Below the pieces are notes generated by a model. That model had not been told where the DNA came from, ran no database searches, and saw nothing but the letters and a program-made list of their open reading frames with translations. The translations under genes were made by a program, and so were the position numbers. DNA of 35,095 nucleotides from Acidobacteriota bacterium (GTDB lineage Bacteria > Acidobacteriota > Terriglobia > Acidiferrales > UBA7541), in assembly GCA_003224085.1 (NCBI GenBank), contig QHYK01000099.1, positions 1 to 35,095 on the forward strand, read 5' to 3'. Position 1 is the first letter of the stretch; the number at the start of each line of letters is the position of its first letter. Shown one piece after another: positions 5,550 to 24,373 of this stretch.

Positions 5550-6620
5550 CTAAGGGATGCCGGTCCTCTTTGTTTCGGGCGTAAGCAAAACCACTCTCCC
5601 TGGCGTTTGTTCAATTCGGTCGATTGCACGAATCGCTTCAGCGTAAGGAACATCTGGCTCCGCATCAAAAAACACGGTGCAGCTTGCCCTTGCCCCGATT
5701 TGCGCCCTCAATGCGTCCGACAGGTTGTCCGGCTCAATTCTTGCGGAGTTCAAATACCATTTGTTGCTCGATTCCACGCGAACCACGCACGCCTGCTCAC
5801 AAGGGACATGTTTGAATAGGGATGACTCTGGAAAATATGTGAGGACAAACAGCCCGTACGAACGATGGTCGTATCCCCATGCATAGTGAAACACAAGAAT
5901 CCCAGAGATTACTAACAGAAGCAGAATCTGCGAGTACAGCAGACCAATTTGAGAGAAGAAAGGAATCCACGGCGCGACCTTCACTCTGTGGAGTGCTGGA
6001 TAACCATGGAGGGAACGCGGCGGTTCAAAAAAGTCGAGACCTTCCGCGCGGCGCCTGCGAAGGCTTTCTCGTATGCCTACAATCAGAACACCCAGACCGA
6101 TAGACCCTGAAAGAAATGAAATCCAAAATGCATTCTGGTAGTACCTATTCCACCGGAAGAAATCGTCGTTACTGGCGATGACGTACAATCGCGGATTGCC
6201 TGCATCTAAGCATCCAGTATCAGAGAGAACTTCAATCCGAAGATTGTAGTGGCCGCGCTTGCCTTCAAATCCTCCAAGGAATGAACCAGTGACCGTATCT
6301 CGCCCTCTGGCGCGGCTCTCATCCTCTATCCACTGATAGCGATAAACAGGAAGACCGCCGAGAGAAGATATTCGTCGTGTCTCCAATCCGACGCCGTTGC
6401 TGCAGATGAGATTGCCACCTTGGGAAAGACCAATGTCGATGGAGTAAGAACCGTGGATGTTTAAGTCAAGATCAGCGTTAATGGTGCCGCGAACCAGCGA
6501 TACGGGCATGTCCACCGCTCGCAACGTTCGAGATTGAATCCAGTATGTCGTCCCGATAAATCCAACGATGGCGGCGAGGAGTACGACACATCCCACCATT
6601 ATGGTAGGGGGTCTCCGCAT
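5550..6620 (-). CDS. Membrane protein with C-terminal ExbD/TolR-like domain
   Basis: The 356-residue protein has a TM helix at about 8-27, a periplasmic domain with two Cys (73 and 137) to about 160, TM helices at about 166-184 and 228-246, and a C-terminal soluble domain. Residues 286-350 follow the ExbD/TolR periplasmic pattern: W-Y-L-N-S near 288, then L-x-x-A-L-R-A near 300-306, V-F-F-D-A-E near 316-321, V-P-Y-A-E-A-I at 324-330, and V-V-L-L-T-P at 343-348. In canonical ExbD this domain dimerises and binds peptidoglycan or TonB-box partners to couple proton motive force. Here the canonical single TM helix with its conserved Asp is replaced by a three-TM region, and no exbB/tolQ neighbour is present. 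It is probably an unusual relative with the domain reused; exact role unknown. Confidence 0.65.
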   Translation of the reverse strand: MRRPPTIMVGCVVLLAAIVGFIGTTYWIQSRTLRAVDMPVSLVRGTINADLDLNIHGSYSIDIGLSQGGNLICSNGVGLETRRISSLGGLPVYRYQWIEDESRARGRDTVTGSFLGGFEGKRGHYNLRIEVLSDTGCLDAGNPRLYVIASNDDFFRWNRYYQNAFWISFLSGSIGLGVLIVGIRESLRRRRAEGLDFFEPPRSLHGYPALHRVKVAPWIPFFSQIGLLYSQILLLLVISGILVFHYAWGYDHRSYGLFVLTYFPESSLFKHVPCEQACVVRVESSNKWYLNSARIEPDNLSDALRAQIGARASCTVFFDAEPDVPYAEAIRAIDRIEQTPGRVVLLTPETKRTGIP

Positions 6621-6844
6621 ATCTATTCAGACTCCGTAGCCTTGGAAATGTTCCCAGGGCTTCGAGTACTCGGAACTTTAGATGAGTATTGTTGACGAAT
6701 GCCACCCTAGCAATGACTGAAACTCGTGGATATGTTCGGGAGTAACACGGGTCAACTCCTTCCATGAGAAGGCCGGTGAGTGTCAAGTCTTTCCTTTCAT
6801 TTTTTCCGGCTCGCAATACTCTGCCGACTAGGTCCGGACAGAAA

Positions 6845-7132
6845 TCAGCCCTCTGCCGGCTTTCGTGCACCTTTGTTTGGTCGACTCGGCCCGGGATCTT
6901 CAAAGAGAAATTGGTTTCGATCGTTAATGGCAAGCGCACGGATTCGGCCCTTTCGTCCCCAATCCGCAATCGTGTTTGTTGAAACGCCGCACCGTCGTGC
7001 AATCTCAAGAGTGGTAAGCATGCCTCGTTCACGAAGCCGATCGAAGCGGCTCTTGAGTCCGTAGGCCGTTCGAATGTAGCCAACGGCTGGTGATGTCAAC
7101 GGCAAGCCGTCGCCTGTTTTGAACCCGTTCTC
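6845..7132 (-). pseudogene. C-terminal remnant of a large serine recombinase
   Basis: The minus-strand frame reads GFKTGDGLPLTSPAVGYIR, then YGLKSRFDRLRERGMLT, then a helix-turn-helix (EIARRCGVSTNTIADW), then ALAINDRNQFLFEDPG. This order (T-G-D-G-x-P-L, 'YGLKSR..RLRERGMLT', HTH, 'NDRN..L(Y/F)E.PG') is the C-terminal end of site-specific serine recombinases common in soil bacterial mobile elements. Upstream of about 7132 the frame no longer resembles the family and no resolvase catalytic domain is found, so only the tail remains. It lies directly beside the broken DsbD-type fragment, suggesting an old insertion and decay. 6621-6844 holds nothing I can support. Confidence 0.65.
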
Positions 7133-7354
7133 CGATCCTTGATCCGCCCTCAAGATCCGGTTCGCCGCCGCCAGATATTCGTTTCGCAACGGGATCCTTG
7201 ATCGACTGTTCCGGTGACATAGGCGAGCAGCCGCACCCAAAGCATTCCAGAGCCTCCCTAACTTGATCGTCGAACTCGGATTGTACATGCTCTTGACGTT
7301 TCAGAAACCAGCTGTGCGAGGAAATCGCGAGACCGGAAAACAAGCCTTTTCAAT

Positions 7355-7605
7355 GCTTTTGAGATTTTTGACCATACGGGCAAATTCAGGATCGCCGAGG
7401 ATGTAAGGGTTGGCGCCTCTAAAGCTGGCGATGGCTTCCGCGCCCTGTTGTCAGCTAGCAAGACCGTTTCGATTGAGGGAGAGCTGCACTATCAAGCCTG
7501 CGACAAGACGATTTGCTATCCACCTACGTCGGTCCGGTAAAATGGGAGTTGCAGATTCAACCTCTTGACCTGAAGCGATCTCCAAAGGCCATTCAACACA
7601 AATAG
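7355..7605 (+). pseudogene. DsbD alpha-domain-like 3' end, frameshifted
   Basis: The plus frame from about 7355 gives F-E-I-F-D-H-T-G-K-F, then VSIEGELHYQACDKTICYPP, closely matching the end of the thiol-disulfide interchange domain (DsbD_N-like) proteins frequent in Acidobacteriota, in which 'YQACdd..C(Y/L)pP' carries the redox Cys pair. After T-S-V a single missing C moves the frame into a stop (TAA). Restoring one C in GTCCGGTAAAATGG continues P-V-K-W-E-L-Q-I-Q-P-L-D and then I-Q-H-K-stop at 7605, the usual family ending. The 5' part of the gene is gone. I conclude a truncated, frameshifted pseudogene. Confidence 0.6.
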
Positions 7606-7658
7606 ATCCTTGGGTTGATGGAACTAGGAAGTACCAATGCTTTGGAAGGACGAAGACC

Positions 7659-8132
7659 ATGAGTAACGTCGTTTACGTTTCCAAATCTCGTATCGAACGC
7701 CGCGAGGGGCCCCTCCGTATTGCACACCTGCCGGGGGAGTCCAAGCCTGTAATTTATAGTGTCCACGGGGCCATTGCCGAACATTACAAAATTGACCCCG
7801 CGAAACTCAAGGAGTCGCACTCTTCGACCATTGATTACGTTATTTCCGCCACTGCCGGTTGAATGATGGGCACTTTTGGAGGTGCGCTGGAAGCGCGCCA
7901 GATTGATGCCAGCAATAGGAAATTGACAGCCGAAGTGACCGGCGAAGTGGAAACCGAGGATGGCGTGCTTGTGATCCGCCGCATCCATGTTGCGATGCGG
8001 CTAGTGGCGCCCGAAAGCGCCAGGGAGACAGTCGAACGTACGCACGGCGTTTACGCCATGCACTGCCCGCTCTATCGCACTCTGCACAAGGCGATACAGC
8101 TCAGTTCTTCTTTCGAGCTCGCTACTCTCTGA
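7659..8132 (+). CDS. OsmC-family peroxiredoxin, putative selenoprotein (in-frame TGA at 7860-7862)
   Basis: Two abutting ORFs in the same frame (67 codons, TGA, 89 codons) together make one 157-residue OsmC-family protein. OsmC/YhfA proteins reduce organic hydroperoxides or related electrophiles with a Cys pair. The first Cys follows a small-residue stretch (A-A-G-G-C in E. coli YhfA); here ISATAG-TGA-MMGTFGGALEA places the TGA exactly on that Cys. The second Cys is present in MHCPLYRTLHKA, just before the conserved S-S-S-F-E-L end. GGAAGGA 8 nt before the ATG is a good ribosome-binding site. A stem-loop fitting the bacterial SECIS pattern follows the TGA. OsmC-like selenoproteins are known from metagenomic selenoproteome surveys. 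Both halves show no other damage, unlike the neighbouring pseudogenes. The alternative is a simple nonsense mutation from TGC; selA/selB/selC/selD are not in this window. Confidence 0.75.
7869..7910 (+). promoter_or_regulatory. Candidate bacterial SECIS element
   Basis: Beginning 6 nt after the TGA: a short outer helix GGCA (7869-7872) with TGCC (7907-7910), an internal loop, then a 7-bp upper stem GGTGCGC (7881-7887) with GCGCGCC (7893-7899; six Watson-Crick pairs and one G-U), closed by the 5-nt loop TGGAA (7888-7892). The apical loop begins 25 nt after the TGA and has G at its second and third positions, matching the consensus for bacterial SECIS elements (upper stem-loop 16-37 nt downstream, G within the first two loop bases). 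SelB would bind this loop. A GCAC/GTGC pairing is a competing fold. Confidence 0.6.
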
Positions 8133-8194
8133 ACTTCTACTTCTAGTCTTTTGAGCTTTCGAACCGCCCTGAATTTCATCCTGCGAGCTCTCGC

Positions 8195-8308
8195 GGAGAA
8201 GTTCACAAGGTCGGGATCAGCAATGGCCAGTATGCGGGACGTGTCCCCAAGGTTAAAACCCTCCCGAAATTCGCTTTTGGCCACATTGATGGTATACAGC
8301 TCGTGCAT
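8195..8308 (-). pseudogene. N-terminal fragment of a DUF4440/SnoaL-like (NTF2-fold) protein
   Basis: From the ATG at 8308, with a GGAGA ribosome-binding site about 6 nt upstream, the frame reads MHELYTINVAKSEFREGFN then LGDTSRILAIADPDLVNFS. The pattern 'a..EfRe.yN.GD..rllai..d' is the start of DUF4440 / SgcJ-EcaC NTF2-fold proteins. After about residue 38 the similarity ends and the frame simply runs on antisense to the osmC end, so the gene is cut. It is bordered upstream by the group II intron stump, whose truncation point is at about 8370. Confidence 0.45.
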
Positions 8309-8370
8309 TCTTTCTCTCCATGCTCTTTTGAGATGAGCCTTAGTTCGCAGTCAATCCTAACGGAATAACA

Positions 8371-8808
8371 GATGTTGAACGGCTTGTCTGTCGCACGCAT
8401 CGAGGTCCTCCTGTTTCCAGTTGCTTCGGTCATGCGACCACTTGACCCGACCCCTTTGCTCCAGCCCCATTACGAGCCTTCTTCGCTCATACGAGTCGGT
8501 CCGCCCCAGTGCTCCGCATCGGTACGCTCGCCTCGCGGTTTTGGCCGCTTGGGCTTCTCCCTTCGCATCAGAGCGACTGGTTCCTGCAGTTCCACGCGAC
8601 AGCCTGCATCCGCTTCACGCCCTCTCTACGCCGGTCGCCGTCCGCTCAGTCATCAGGCACCCCGCGGACTTGTCCCAGGAAAACCATACGCCCCTGGTTT
8701 CGACGACTCTTGAGTTCTTAACGACGCGTCTTCGAAGGGTTCACTTTCGTTCGTCTCTCGGATGCTCACCTGCACGAGTTGTACTCGCGCTTTTCCTCCA
8801 ACGCACAC
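8371..8808 (-). mobile_element. Truncated group II intron (5' half plus first ~20 codons of its RT/maturase)
   Basis: The minus strand carries a compact structured RNA-like sequence with short runs I know from bacterial group II intron domain I: GAACGAAAGTGAACC, GGAACTGCAGGAACCAGTCG, CTCTGATGCGAAGGGAGAA, GTAATGGGGCTGGAGCAAAG. It ends in the start of the intron-encoded protein (MTEATGNRRTSMRATDKPFN I, ATG at 8433 or 8400). The 'AtdKPF.I' start is typical of group II reverse transcriptases, which continue with a V-W-x-A-Y helix; here the match stops after N-I at about 8371. A GTGTGCG at 8808-8802 fits the 5' boundary consensus GUGYG, but the true end could lie further out. RT core, domains V/VI and the 3' end are missing, so it cannot splice alone. 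Long plus-strand ORFs here are shadows of the RNA. Confidence 0.7.
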
Positions 8809-9005
8809 CACCATGGCTCTTTACCACAGCAGCTTGGAGTGGTTTGAGACCTGCTCCTGAAAGCCGATCTCGAGGGACCTTCCCTCATCTCTCGCGCAGC
8901 TTATCCACACGGTTTATTAGTTCATGATTGAACTCCTTATCCGTATGCTTCCTGCAGCACACTATGGTGAAAAAACTCGTCCTGGTCGCTGCCCTGAGCC
9001 GGAAC
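8809..9005. other. Intergenic stretch, no gene supported
   Basis: A short ATG-initiated stretch at about 8964 reads MVKKLVLVAALSRNSLLCAR and then stops, like a signal-peptide remnant, but nothing follows it. The rest may be flanking sequence of the intron. Together with the weak ORF at 9006-9239 this covers the gap before the CRTAC1 gene. Confidence 0.3.
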
Positions 9006-20365: not shown

Positions 20366-23300
20366 CTAAAACACAAAGCGGACCGCGAACTGGCCCATGC
20401 GGGCGCCGGTACTCCGGGCCGAATTGACGTAGTTCTGCAAGTTGATGGTGCTGGAGATTTGGCTGAGCGGAGTGGTGCTGTTCACCGTTCGTGCCGGCAA
20501 GCCAAAGGTCACGCGGTTGAACGCATTGTAGAGCTCCATCCGCAACTGCAAGCCCATACTCTCGCGGATTTTGAACGTCTTGGCCAACGCTGCATCCACG
20601 TTCTTCTGGCCCTGCAGGAAGAAGGAGTTGCGGGGTATTGCGCCTGCTGGGAAATCCTGTCCTGGAGAGACGGGAAACTGGTCGCCGGACTTCAAGCTCG
20701 CCTGGGACGGCTGGAAGGCGGTGCCTGGCAACTGAAGCTCCGATTGGGTGTCTAGGCAGCGCCCTGGTGGCACCAGCGGCGTCGGACAGCTACTTTGTGC
20801 ACGCCCGTTGTCAACAGAAGTGTAGAGCAAAGCAGGATCGAGAAGGATCGGGCGGTCGCCGCCCACGCCGTCGAAATTGGCGTCATATCCTGAAAGGACC
20901 GTGAACGGCAGCCCGGACGCGAAAGTGGCTACGCCGCTGATTTGCCAACGGCTCACCCACCAGGCGACCGAGAGCGGACTGAACGCGCCCGGCCAACTCT
21001 TCATCCACGGCAAATCATAAGCTGCGGAAACTACGACGCGATGCGTCTGATCAAAGCTGGAAAGCCCTCGCAGAGAACCCTGCGGGTTAACTGCGCCCAC
21101 CGGAGCGTTCACGTCCGAGCCCGTGAAAGTGGCCTCGGACCCCGTATCCATCGTCTTGCTCCAGGTCCACCAGCCCGAGAGAGTCAGGCCATGGCTGGTT
21201 GCTTTGGTAACTCTCAGTAGCATTGCGTTGTAGTAGGTGAAAGCGAAGTTGCTTAGAAGGACGTTGCGACCATTAGCGGGGTCGGGACGCCGCTCCGCAA
21301 TGCGTTCAGAAGTCGTACTACCCAGGGAAACGTACCCATGCGGTACGCCATTGACGATCATGATACCCTTCTGTGCTAAGGACGCTGTTGTACTGGTCAA
21401 CGACGAGAATGCTTTCAGGGCGCCGCTTGAACCCGGTATCAAGTTGCCGCTGGTATCAAGCGAGTCGCAGATAGGATCGCTGAAGTCCGCGCAGACTCGG
21501 TCGAACACCACGGGCTGAAAGTTTCCGCCACCCACATCCACCGTGACCAGAGGCGATGTGATGGGGAAGCGCGCATCGTTGATGCCACTAAAGAAAGGCA
21601 ATCCTATCCCCCGGTTTCCCTCGTAGCTGACCTGCAGGGCCGTACTCCAGGGCATCTTGCGCTCGACCGTTAGGTTCCACTGCTGGACATAAGGCAGGTG
21701 GAAATTCCGGTCGGGAATCAGAAGGGAGGTCAGCAATTGGCCTCCCGCTTCTTTCACACCGTTGCAACCCGAAGCCGTGGTGCTGCAGGCAGCCACGGCA
21801 GAGCGGCTGGCGGCGCCAGGGGTGAACTGAAAGCCGCAGGATGGATCAGAAACCTCGAACTGTCCGCCGTTGACGAATACCGTCCCCGCTGGATCCGTTA
21901 CATTCGCCCCCGGGTTTGCCAAGCAGGGGTTCGCGAACGAAGTCAAAAGGAAGCCGTTGGGAGGCTGGAAACGGAAGTTCAAGCCGCTTTGCGAAAAGAC
22001 CGACTGGAACACTCGGTCGTAGTAAATGCCGTAGCCGCCGCGGATGACGAAATCACCCGGTCCGCCCGTAATCTTTCTAAGGAAAGAGTTCTGCCCTTCC
22101 GGCGTCCAGGCGAAACCGATGCGCGGCCCCACGTTGTTGTAATCTCCCCCGTAGCCATAACTGAAGCGGTCTTTAATCTCGTGAGGCGGCCGGACGCCTT
22201 CCCAGCGCACTCCCAAATTAAGGGTGAGGTTGCGCTTAAGCCGGAAATCATCTTGGGCGTAAAGGTTTGTCTCGCCGAAGCGATTTTCCGCTTTCGGCAA
22301 ACCGTATCCCTGGTTGTAGCCCGTAAGAACGCCATCCAGGAAGTCCTCCCATCCACTAAAACCTGTTCCGGCCAATGCCTGAGCGCCCGTATTGATGCTA
22401 CCGAAGGTCCAGAAGCCGCGCTGCGTGCCGCTCGCGACATCGTCCAGCGCCTGAAATCGCTGGTCAATGCCCGTGCGCAGAGTGTGGCGCGTGAAGACGA
22501 TGGTGTGGTTGTAGACGAGCTGATGGTCGCGCTGATAGCGGTTGATTGGAACGTTAGTGGAGGTACCGATGATTGTCCCGCCGAAAGGAATTGTGTCGCT
22601 GGAAGCTGCCGGGTTCACTAGCGTCGTGGCAAATCGGATGGTGGGAACCTGATCGCCATCGGTAACATCCTGGTTGGTATTGCGGTTGCCAAATCCATAA
22701 CGGAATTCCCCGGTCTGCCGGGGGCCGTACACATGGGTGAGCGTATACCCGAGGTTATACTGCCGATTATTGTTCGTGCCGAAATTATCCCCCAGGATGA
22801 TTCGGGCCGAGTTCCGAATCTGGCGGCTGTATTGGTAACGTGCGGTCATGGTCGTGCTTGCGTTGGTGTTCCAGTCCATCCTTCCCGTGTAATCCGAGTC
22901 CGGAAATGTGAAGCCCAGACCGGAAACCAGCACGCAGCGGTTCGGTCGGCCGCTCTGAATCACCTGCGCACAAGCCGCCGGATCATTCGGAGTCTTCCCT
23001 TGGAGTTCAGGCGTGTTCCAGAGATTCATCACCGACTTAATGAAATTGAGGTCGCTTTGCAGATTGGGATGAGTGTTTGGATCAACGCAGTAAGGCCCTC
23101 CGGGCTGCGGAGTTTCGCCGGCGTTGCAAGCCCTGGGACCATCTGCCGGAAGCCAGGTAAATCGCGAAATGCTACCTTTGCCTACGTTGGATACTTTCTC
23201 CCCGCTGCCGAAGAAAAACAGCTTGTTCTTCAGGATTGGCCCGCCAATGGTCCCCCCGTACTGGTTTCGCCGTACTGGTGGCCGTTTGCCTCCCGCCTGG

Positions 23301-24127
23301 TTCAGGAAAAAGTCGTTGGCATTAAAGATGTCATTCTGGATGAAGTCGTACGCGTCCCCGTGGAATTCGTTTGTGCCTGACTTGGTTTGCACCAGAATTA
23401 CTGCGCCGCCTGCCCGCCCGAATTCCGCCGAATAAGCATTGGTCAGAACTTGAAACTCCTTGATGGTGCTGATGTTCACGTTCTGGCGGTTCTGGTTTTC
23501 CGAGGAATCGTCGTTGTTCACGCCGTCAATCTGAAACGTGGACGAGCGCGTGCCCTGGCCGCTGAATGCGGCGTAGGATCCGGTCGAGTTCGTCGGGTTG
23601 TTGGACGAGCCGTTGAAAGCTGCTGGCTGAAAGCCAGGAACCTGCTCGACCAGGGAGATAAAGTTGCGACCGGGCAGCGGCGTTGCCTCGACCTGCAATT
23701 CGTTAAGGGTGCTTTTCACCTCGCCGCCCGTCGTGTCGATTAGAGGAATTTCCCCGGCGCGGACTTCCACCTTTTCCGACACGGCGGATGGCTCCAGAAC
23801 AAAATCGGATACGGTATTCTTGTTCAGTTCCACCACCACGCCGTCCTTTTCCACGCTCCGGAAGCCTTGCAGAGCGACGGTCACTTTGTAGCTGCCGATG
23901 GCAAGAAAGCTGAACTGATAGAAACCATCATTATTCGTTGTGGCCTCACGAATCGCTCCCGTTTGCTCGTTGATGGCAGTGACCTTCGTCTGTGGTACGG
24001 TGGCGCCGCTCTTGTCCGAGATATGGCCGCTCAACGTTCCTGTCACTGTCTGAGCCCAGGTACCCGAAGCGCCGATGGAAAGTCCCGCGACGATGAAGAG
24101 CAAAATCCCGATTCGCTTTGTATGCAT
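20366..24127 (-). CDS. TonB-dependent receptor, Oar/carboxypeptidase-regulatory-like type (second)
   Basis: I start at the ATG at 24127, which has GGAGGGAG 6 nt upstream and opens a signal peptide (MHTKRIGILLFIVAGLSIGA then SGTWAQ). The upstream 25 in-frame codons overlap an IS remnant. The 1253-residue product has a carboxypeptidase-regulatory-like domain at about 27-110 (LSGHISDKSGATVPQTKV, GFYQFSFLAIGSYKVTV), a plug (EATPLPGRNFISLVEQVPG, SSTFQIDGVNNDDSSENQNR, AYSAEFGRAGGAVILVQTKS) and a long barrel ending QFAVRFVF. Its role is active uptake of a large substrate across the outer membrane. It is only distantly similar to the receptor at 11230, so it is not a recent duplicate. It is flanked on both sides by IS481-type transposase pieces pointing outward. 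Confidence 0.9.
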   Translation of the reverse strand: MHTKRIGILLFIVAGLSIGASGTWAQTVTGTLSGHISDKSGATVPQTKVTAINEQTGAIREATTNNDGFYQFSFLAIGSYKVTVALQGFRSVEKDGVVVELNKNTVSDFVLEPSAVSEKVEVRAGEIPLIDTTGGEVKSTLNELQVEATPLPGRNFISLVEQVPGFQPAAFNGSSNNPTNSTGSYAAFSGQGTRSSTFQIDGVNNDDSSENQNRQNVNISTIKEFQVLTNAYSAEFGRAGGAVILVQTKSGTNEFHGDAYDFIQNDIFNANDFFLNQAGGKRPPVRRNQYGGTIGGPILKNKLFFFGSGEKVSNVGKGSISRFTWLPADGPRACNAGETPQPGGPYCVDPNTHPNLQSDLNFIKSVMNLWNTPELQGKTPNDPAACAQVIQSGRPNRCVLVSGLGFTFPDSDYTGRMDWNTNASTTMTARYQYSRQIRNSARIILGDNFGTNNNRQYNLGYTLTHVYGPRQTGEFRYGFGNRNTNQDVTDGDQVPTIRFATTLVNPAASSDTIPFGGTIIGTSTNVPINRYQRDHQLVYNHTIVFTRHTLRTGIDQRFQALDDVASGTQRGFWTFGSINTGAQALAGTGFSGWEDFLDGVLTGYNQGYGLPKAENRFGETNLYAQDDFRLKRNLTLNLGVRWEGVRPPHEIKDRFSYGYGGDYNNVGPRIGFAWTPEGQNSFLRKITGGPGDFVIRGGYGIYYDRVFQSVFSQSGLNFRFQPPNGFLLTSFANPCLANPGANVTDPAGTVFVNGGQFEVSDPSCGFQFTPGAASRSAVAACSTTASGCNGVKEAGGQLLTSLLIPDRNFHLPYVQQWNLTVERKMPWSTALQVSYEGNRGIGLPFFSGINDARFPITSPLVTVDVGGGNFQPVVFDRVCADFSDPICDSLDTSGNLIPGSSGALKAFSSLTSTTASLAQKGIMIVNGVPHGYVSLGSTTSERIAERRPDPANGRNVLLSNFAFTYYNAMLLRVTKATSHGLTLSGWWTWSKTMDTGSEATFTGSDVNAPVGAVNPQGSLRGLSSFDQTHRVVVSAAYDLPWMKSWPGAFSPLSVAWWVSRWQISGVATFASGLPFTVLSGYDANFDGVGGDRPILLDPALLYTSVDNGRAQSSCPTPLVPPGRCLDTQSELQLPGTAFQPSQASLKSGDQFPVSPGQDFPAGAIPRNSFFLQGQKNVDAALAKTFKIRESMGLQLRMELYNAFNRVTFGLPARTVNSTTPLSQISSTINLQNYVNSARSTGARMGQFAVRFVF

Positions 24128-24166
24128 TCTTGCTCCCTCCCCGCCCTCCCCGCCCGGTAAGAGCTT

Positions 24167-24373
24167 CGTCGGGAGTGCCTCGATCATGTGATCGTGTTCC
24201 ACGAAAGCTCGCTACGAAGAACGCTCCAATCGTATTTCGAATACTACCATCGATCGAGAACGCATCTTTCGTTGGGAAAGGACGCGCCGGAGCCACGAGC
24301 GATGCAGCCGCCGGAAATGGGGACCGTCGTGGCCCTTCCGCAGGTCGGTGGACTGCACCACCGCTACGAGTGA
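24167..24373 (+). pseudogene. IS481-type transposase, C-terminal 68 codons
   Basis: From about 24167 the plus frame reads R-R-E-C-L-D-H-V-I-V-F-H-E-S-S-L-R-R-T-L, then YFEYYHRSRTHLSLGKDAPE, ending VGGLHHRYE and TGA. This is the very end of rve/IS481-type transposases ('RRECLDHviv.ne..Lrr.l..Y..yYhrsRtHlsLgKDaPe.R'). Nothing of the HTH or the DDE residues before the final region remains. Its 5' break lies 40 nt upstream of the TonB-receptor start codon, so this remnant occupies the receptor's promoter region. It is a different subfamily from the chimera at 19519-20133. Confidence 0.75.

Follow-up and report, generated by a model that had tools for sequence, protein, structure and literature searches.

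The window (the whole 35,095-nt stretch of Acidobacteriota DNA analysed here) contains an OsmC-type gene whose reading frame is crossed by one TGA, and this TGA, at 7860–7862, is very probably read as selenocysteine (Sec), as a first-pass annotation had claimed. Our confidence in Sec decoding is high. It draws on the selenocysteine machinery of the same genome, on a conserved hairpin behind the TGA, and on sequence comparison, in which all 22 relatives from public genomes and all 33 copies from a phylum-wide search have TGA at the same codon. The best explanation of the whole, which we consider highly likely, is that the gene encodes one 157-residue protein with Sec at position 68, inserted by means of SelB and the hairpin, with an OsmC/Ohr fold and most likely a hydroperoxide-reducing activity. 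The gene and its relatives apparently form a distinct, Sec-only OsmC subfamily of Acidobacteriota, and this subfamily is the advance reported here.

The OsmC-type gene and its in-frame TGA

7644–7650, plus strand: Shine-Dalgarno-like GGAAGGA, found by eye, 8 nt 5' of the ATG
7659–8132, plus strand: gene of a putative OsmC-type selenoprotein (Pfam OsmC match), 157 codons, Sec at codon 68, stop TGA 8130–8132
7860–7862, plus strand: in-frame TGA, putative Sec, at the catalytic Cys column (TGA kept in relatives, aligned to the OsmC Cys)
8064–8066, plus strand: codon of the second (resolving-type) Cys136, invariant in the 39-row alignment A4

From the ATG at 7659, the frame passes a sole internal TGA (codon 68) before reaching its next stop, TGA 8130–8132, which agrees with the earlier description of two same-frame open reading frames parted by a single TGA; the ribosome-binding site described before the first half is also in place. 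Ordinary annotation would presumably split the gene into two false genes. Translated with both TGAs (internal and final stop) as Cys, the protein scores 41.6 bits against Pfam PF02566 (OsmC), above the gathering cut-off of 27.5, and a genome search with the TGA read through gave 33.1 bits for the same gene. Seven other OsmC-type matches occur in this genome, all stop-free and all with Cys at the column aligned to the TGA. An alignment of 85 rows set 51 from the subfamily beside 34 from outside it. At the TGA position, 33 of these 34 have Cys (counting any TGA there as Cys) and one has Ser, which bears out the proposal that the TGA sits at the first catalytic Cys. The second Cys, said to be intact, is indeed present as codon 136. 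At this second place, Cys is followed by Pro or Ser in 51 of the 55 aligned subfamily rows; in the remaining four, this place is cut off, damaged or ambiguous (N). The region of L125 (G044:C49) has ambiguous bases in and after the gene, second Cys codon included.

Both halves of the gene are under purifying selection. Median dN/dS is 0.09 before the TGA and 0.12 after it (106 of 190 pairs usable, L051–L053 left out of the set), and for the closest relative, L033, the values are 0.03 and 0.07. The stretch behind the TGA, with its low dN/dS, is therefore protein-coding and constrained, and the earlier statement that the halves are otherwise undamaged holds.

Conservation of the TGA in relatives

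A single-protein scan of public genome contigs, with a reach of close relatives only, gave 22 loci, all from Acidobacteria by title, and every one has TGA at the position of codon 68. Twenty-one of them then run without another stop to the C-terminus or as far as the match extends; the remaining one, L052, diverges from the family at about codon 114, meets a stop at codon 122, and is therefore a damaged copy. With a profile built from the window protein and its relatives (A1), 396 genomes of the phylum gave 33 matches at E 1e-10 or better, in 32 genomes (the window's own included); a TGA is the single stop in each. A second, broader profile (A4, 39 of the 55 rows, leaving out L051–L053, L077, L124, L125 and ten more close rows) was searched in the same genomes at a threshold of 1e-7 and gave 39 matches in 38 genomes. 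These were the same 33 one-TGA copies (E 8.6e-68 to 5.1e-18, the weakest being the partial copy in G029 and the next 1.7e-48), a contig-edge fragment in G077 (1.7e-22) that stops short of the TGA column, and five stop-free matches (1.3e-9 to 6.5e-8). The last TGA copy and the first stop-free match that covers the column differ in E by over eight orders of magnitude. In the G029 copy, L124, the match to the family is limited to roughly codons 58–130, and L076_1 is a chance match.

Neither Cys nor a stop other than TGA was found at the column in the 22 relatives or in the 33 copies covering it among the 396 genomes. Those 396 genomes yielded no Cys form of the subfamily, with at most nine candidates scored per genome in both profile searches, so a low-ranked Cys form could be missed. 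With no Cys form seen, the exchange between Cys and Sec that the first-pass annotation had proposed looking for is visible only between OsmC subfamilies and is not seen within this one. It had also named other stop codons or frameshifts in near relatives as contrary evidence: TGA is the only stop at the column throughout, and two copies (L052 and the one in G029) are damaged elsewhere.

The recurrence of TGA in relatives is also why we reject a plain pseudogene, in which a nonsense mutation split an OsmC gene. Such decay would suit a genome that has seven other stop-free OsmC-type matches, and a gene whose direct upstream neighbour is a broken remnant, but TGA at the same codon in 22 of 22 and 33 of 33 copies, never another stop, purifying selection behind the TGA, and a conserved hairpin make it highly unlikely. 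Sequencing error is an unlikely source of the TGA because many other assemblies have TGA at the same codon.

Selenocysteine machinery

The window's genome (6.8 Mb, 159 contigs, 97.2% complete, 2.3% contamination) carries selA (contig C58, 462 bits), selB (C7, 353 bits, cut-off 242), tRNA-Sec (C122, 66 bits, cut-off 47; also tRNA-Sec according to ARAGORN, with anticodon tca, i.e., UCA) and selD (C89, 344.5 bits, cut-off 125). All four of the genes that had been suggested as a check on Sec decoding (selA, selB, selC for the tRNA, and selD) are thus in the same genome. The 5' end of selD runs off its contig; the start was recovered from the end of C18, which overlaps C89 by 136 identical nt (L030/L028, G000:C18 + C89). 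In addition, selD itself carries an in-frame TGA (MVKAAG-U-AAK). Since it is both split by contig ends and interrupted by a TGA, plain annotation would probably miss its start. A second match to the tRNA-Sec model, at 47.6 bits just above the cut-off, was rejected, as ARAGORN calls it tRNA-Trp.

Other redox genes of this genome are interrupted in the same way. A Prx-DsbD_N gene (C58:5682–6650), 57% identical to the relative P0002, has its TGA in RSADW-U-PFC, and a peroxiredoxin (L130, G000:C151:162875–163234) has one in FTGG-U-TKQ and is a candidate selenoprotein. The machinery and these further TGA-interrupted genes together make it very probable that this organism decodes UGA as Sec. The stretch G000:C44:35558–35869 also has one TGA.

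Of the 396 phylum genomes, 256 have a selB match and 252 a selA match at E 1e-60 (approximately 64%). Among the 32 genomes that bear the OsmC gene, 28 have selB, 29 have selA, 27 have both and 30 have at least one at the same threshold. Presence of the gene is associated with the machinery (one-sided Fisher p 0.0027 for selB and 0.0004 for selA, with kinship ignored). A tRNA-Sec check covered the five gene-bearing genomes without selA and/or selB (G055, G080, G277, G314 and G317) plus the window's own; in all five, a tRNA-Sec (tca) scored over the cut-off and ARAGORN agreed. Two of these, G080 and G317, have neither selA nor selB at 1e-60; both are draft genomes with tRNA-Sec present.

The hairpin behind the TGA

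7881–7899, plus strand: predicted bacterial SECIS hairpin, 7-bp stem 7881–7887/7893–7899, loop TGGAA 7888–7892

The stem begins 18 nt and the loop 25 nt after the TGA. Published limits for a bacterial SECIS (Fig. 2 legend of PMC13188914) are a loop of 3–9 nt, a stem of 4–16 bp, a G in the first two loop positions, a spacing of 16–37 nt and a free energy of −7.5 kcal/mol or lower. The window hairpin lies within all of them (7 bp, UGGAA, 25 nt, −12.6 kcal/mol), so the stem, loop and spacing reported by the first-pass annotation, and its statement that they fall inside the SECIS window, agree with the coordinates and with these limits. Refolding the region, which had been proposed as a check, gave a modest result: 7860–7912 folds at −19.4 kcal/mol (z −2.43, with 5 of 200 shuffles as good), and two other stretches folded gave z −1.31 (17/200) and z −1.05 (29/200). 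The fold energy by itself is only moderately unusual; it is the comparison of relatives that supports linking the predicted hairpin to the TGA beyond chance. Rfam searches of 6500–9000 and of the whole window gave no match to a SECIS family, an absence that carries little weight.

Across the 55 rows (54 distinct), the seven stem pairs are standard in 92.1% of cells versus 88.2% when shuffled, in 15 cells both partners are changed (shuffle mean 3.1), and the covariation score is 0.237 versus 0.173 shuffled, with 0 of 500 shuffles as high for each of these measures. Two of the five covariation measures did not rise above shuffles, namely both-side-changed pairs (256/500) and further pair types (493/500). 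Two pairs covary, G-C becoming A-U in 11 distinct rows and C-G becoming U-A in 4, and sliding the partner strand by 1–3 columns lowers pairing to 57% or less. A free energy of −7.5 kcal/mol or lower in the same register was found in 51 of the 55 rows.

Codon usage was compared in the 23 closest rows. Synonymous diversity comes to 0 for Ala GCG, 0 for Leu CTG and 0.09 for the second Ala GCG of the stem, and to 0.50 and 0.42 for the Gly and Arg codons at its outer ends; all 45 other four- or six-fold columns lie above 0.2. Among 46 contiguous runs, that of the five stem columns has the lowest mean diversity, and a value as low came up once in 100000 random draws. The stem is held by frozen synonymous codons and compensatory changes. 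At least one inner hairpin pair is broken in five of the 55 rows: L033 (C-A), L059 (G-G), L065, L072 and L074. L072 and L074, both from one genus (g55), have an alternative hairpin slightly upstream; the closest relative, L033, has a weakened one (−7.2 kcal/mol over 19 nt, or −8.7 when a longer piece is folded); and L065 reaches just −2.4 kcal/mol in this register.

From these conserved parts, we propose that SelB with Sec-tRNA(UCA) would recognise the mRNA hairpin at 7881–7899 and insert Sec at UGA 7860–7862, and that the OsmC gene would be translated as a single 157-residue selenoprotein.

Neighbourhood of the gene

7379–7602, plus strand: Prx-DsbD_N remnant, C-terminal end only, in two frames (tblastn; DsbD_N 21.3 bits, below the cut-off of 25)

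The OsmC gene of the window stayed intact while this neighbour decayed, and a longer, TGA-bearing relative of the remnant is found elsewhere in the genome. Prx-DsbD_N lies directly upstream of the OsmC gene in only 7 of the 55 loci, many of which are short or cut, so a general operon is not shown. Six of the seven upstream genes have an in-frame TGA in W-U-P[FY]C, the L034 copy is 5'-truncated, and the L033 copy loses the frame towards its C-terminus; domains were read from the L035 protein. Prx-like UxxC selenoproteins (PMC1088965) are also redox selenoproteins, and a Prx-DsbD_N relative with UPFC or UPYC stands directly upstream in six relatives, but their fold and family differ from those of the window OsmC protein.

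In the rest of the window, the sole Rfam match over the gathering score is a group II intron domain (RF01999, 8768–8886, minus strand, 114 bits). There is no minus-strand open reading frame of at least 90 aa between 7988 and 8768, and the match looks like an isolated intron piece. A DDE transposase (PF13701, 30199–31560, minus strand, 161 bits) and two large outer-membrane beta-barrel proteins (PF25183, 11191–14646 on the plus strand and 20366–24202 on the minus strand) are also present.

Predicted fold and function

An AlphaFold2 model from the 39-row alignment reached a pLDDT of 95.0 (an earlier model from 23 close rows was weak, at 78.7), and in this model the window protein has the OsmC/Ohr fold. 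Its best structure match is 2onf (Z 14.7, rmsd 2.3 over 138). The first 34 matches range from Z 14.7 to 8.2 with identities of 6–18%, and 31 of them have OsmC, Ohr or osmotic-stress titles, the other three (1ml8, 2egt and 2ql8) being neutrally titled; the first unrelated match has Z 7.8.

The predicted fold also bears on whether the TGA could be a true stop giving two short proteins, or a site of regulated read-through giving two products. The TGA lies within predicted helix 57–79, where a break would cut the domain in two, and this, with the conserved hairpin, makes either arrangement extremely unlikely, even though the next codon is a possible start in most rows (ATG or CTG in 54 of 55, CTA in L065). 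Some truncated product is to be expected in any case, since recoding is seldom complete, and this would count in favour of two products.

Taking the gene as encoding one Sec-containing protein, ten residues are invariant in the 39 rows: R20, H36, D59, U68, G71, T72, L77, G95, C136 and P137. Xylella Ohr has a triad of Arg19, Glu51 and Cys61, with Cys125 as partner (PMC5962072), and the counterparts would be R20, Sec68 and C136, with R20 and C136 assigned by place and order. The invariant Asp59 is one position off the Ohr catalytic Glu in the 85-row alignment. Sec68 would thus take the place of the peroxidatic Cys and Cys136 that of the resolving Cys, making hydroperoxide reduction the most likely activity. 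In the mechanism we propose, a hydroperoxide would be reduced through the selenolate, a selenenyl-sulphide would form with Cys136, and a thiol or lipoyl reductant would then open it. The Cys-based Ohr/OsmC peroxidases have a fold in common with the modelled protein (Z up to 14.7), and their peroxidatic Cys aligns with its Sec; they differ in using Cys and Glu, whereas the window protein has Sec, an Asp one place off, and low identity to them. By analogy, an OsmC/Ohr-type seleno-peroxidase is the most economical reading, and we hold it with moderate confidence.

A selenoprotein of another kind, such as a thiol or persulphide handling enzyme built on the OsmC fold, is possible but rather unlikely. 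Identity to solved OsmC/Ohr proteins of merely 6–18%, the shift of the Ohr Glu place by one, and the Prx-DsbD_N fusion neighbour of some relatives (which also fits thiol-disulphide exchange) would accord with it, but R20, D59, Sec68 and C136 are invariant in the 39 rows and resemble Arg19, Glu51, Cys61 and Cys125 of Ohr, which favours the peroxidase.

Place among OsmC selenoproteins

OsmC-like selenoproteins have been known since 2005, when three sequences with UXXT were described from the Sargasso Sea (PMC1088965). They are also given with UxxT in the GOS data (PMC2398784), and they still appear in reviews of 2022 and 2026 (PMC9312934, PMC13188914). For Acidobacteria, a 2006 survey lists four selenoproteins in three families (PMC1794560), and the main text on deep-Sep, where OsmC is absent, has one Acidobacteriota test genome with three known and no new selenoproteins (PMC12013277). 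Among the open-licence PMC papers searched, we found no description of an OsmC selenoprotein of Acidobacteriota.

The first-pass annotation had associated the gene with the OsmC selenoproteins of marine surveys. Such proteins do exist, but the window gene belongs to a different family. Like the putative selenoprotein of the window, the marine proteins (COG1765; PMC1088965, PMC2398784) are of the OsmC superfamily, with Sec for the first catalytic Cys and a SECIS after the UGA. NCBIfam NF041052 (OsmC_like_Se, titled 'OsmC-related (seleno)protein') is probably this marine family, judging from its UxxT-fitting motif. Against NF041052, the window protein scores 13.8 bits, below the cut-off of 95, and three relatives score 28.0, 26.6 and 16.8 bits. 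Whereas the marine/NF041052 family has UxxT, the motif is U-x-x-G-T in all 55 rows of the window subfamily (GG at columns 10–11 and AC at columns 13–14 are invariant in the DNA alignment), and UxxT does not occur there. Among the matches listed, NF041052 is over its cut-off in two of the 396 genomes, G377 (TGA, U-L-L-T) and G148 (Cys), and G377 carries both an NF041052 member and a copy of the window subfamily.

In a FastTree tree of 85 sequences (leaving out L051–L053 and L124, and taking 25 of 30 NF041052 loci, with L103 out of frame and four more left out), the window group is one clade (51 of 51, no intruders, support 0.865) on a long branch, and the NF041052 member L090 (ULLT) is positioned apart from it. 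The matches listed include a third TGA-bearing OsmC pair, L121 (G066:C46, GUTSIT) and L122 (G128:C136, AUTSMT), with TGA at the same catalytic column as in the window gene and GCGC-stem hairpins behind. Unlike the window clade, this pair groups with a Cys protein, L115 (support 0.91), and so looks like an independent Cys-to-Sec change. Other stop-bearing matches are that of G026, which has TAG, and that of G156, not placed in the six-frame listing. The tree suggests that Cys gave way to Sec on several separate occasions within the OsmC superfamily, with the deep nodes of such short proteins being uncertain.

A more far-reaching idea, which we put forward tentatively and think quite possible, is that the subfamily is obligately selenium-dependent. 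Its members would all use UGA without reversion to Cys, would have an origin apart from the two other Sec-OsmC groups, would over part of their distribution belong to a two-selenoprotein redox locus with a Prx-DsbD_N selenoenzyme, and would carry out a reaction that Cys could not sustain. A clade without a known Cys form is easily overlooked. If real, this one would be a natural test of why some enzymes fail to revert to Cys, and it would give OsmC biochemists a selenolate counterpart of Ohr.
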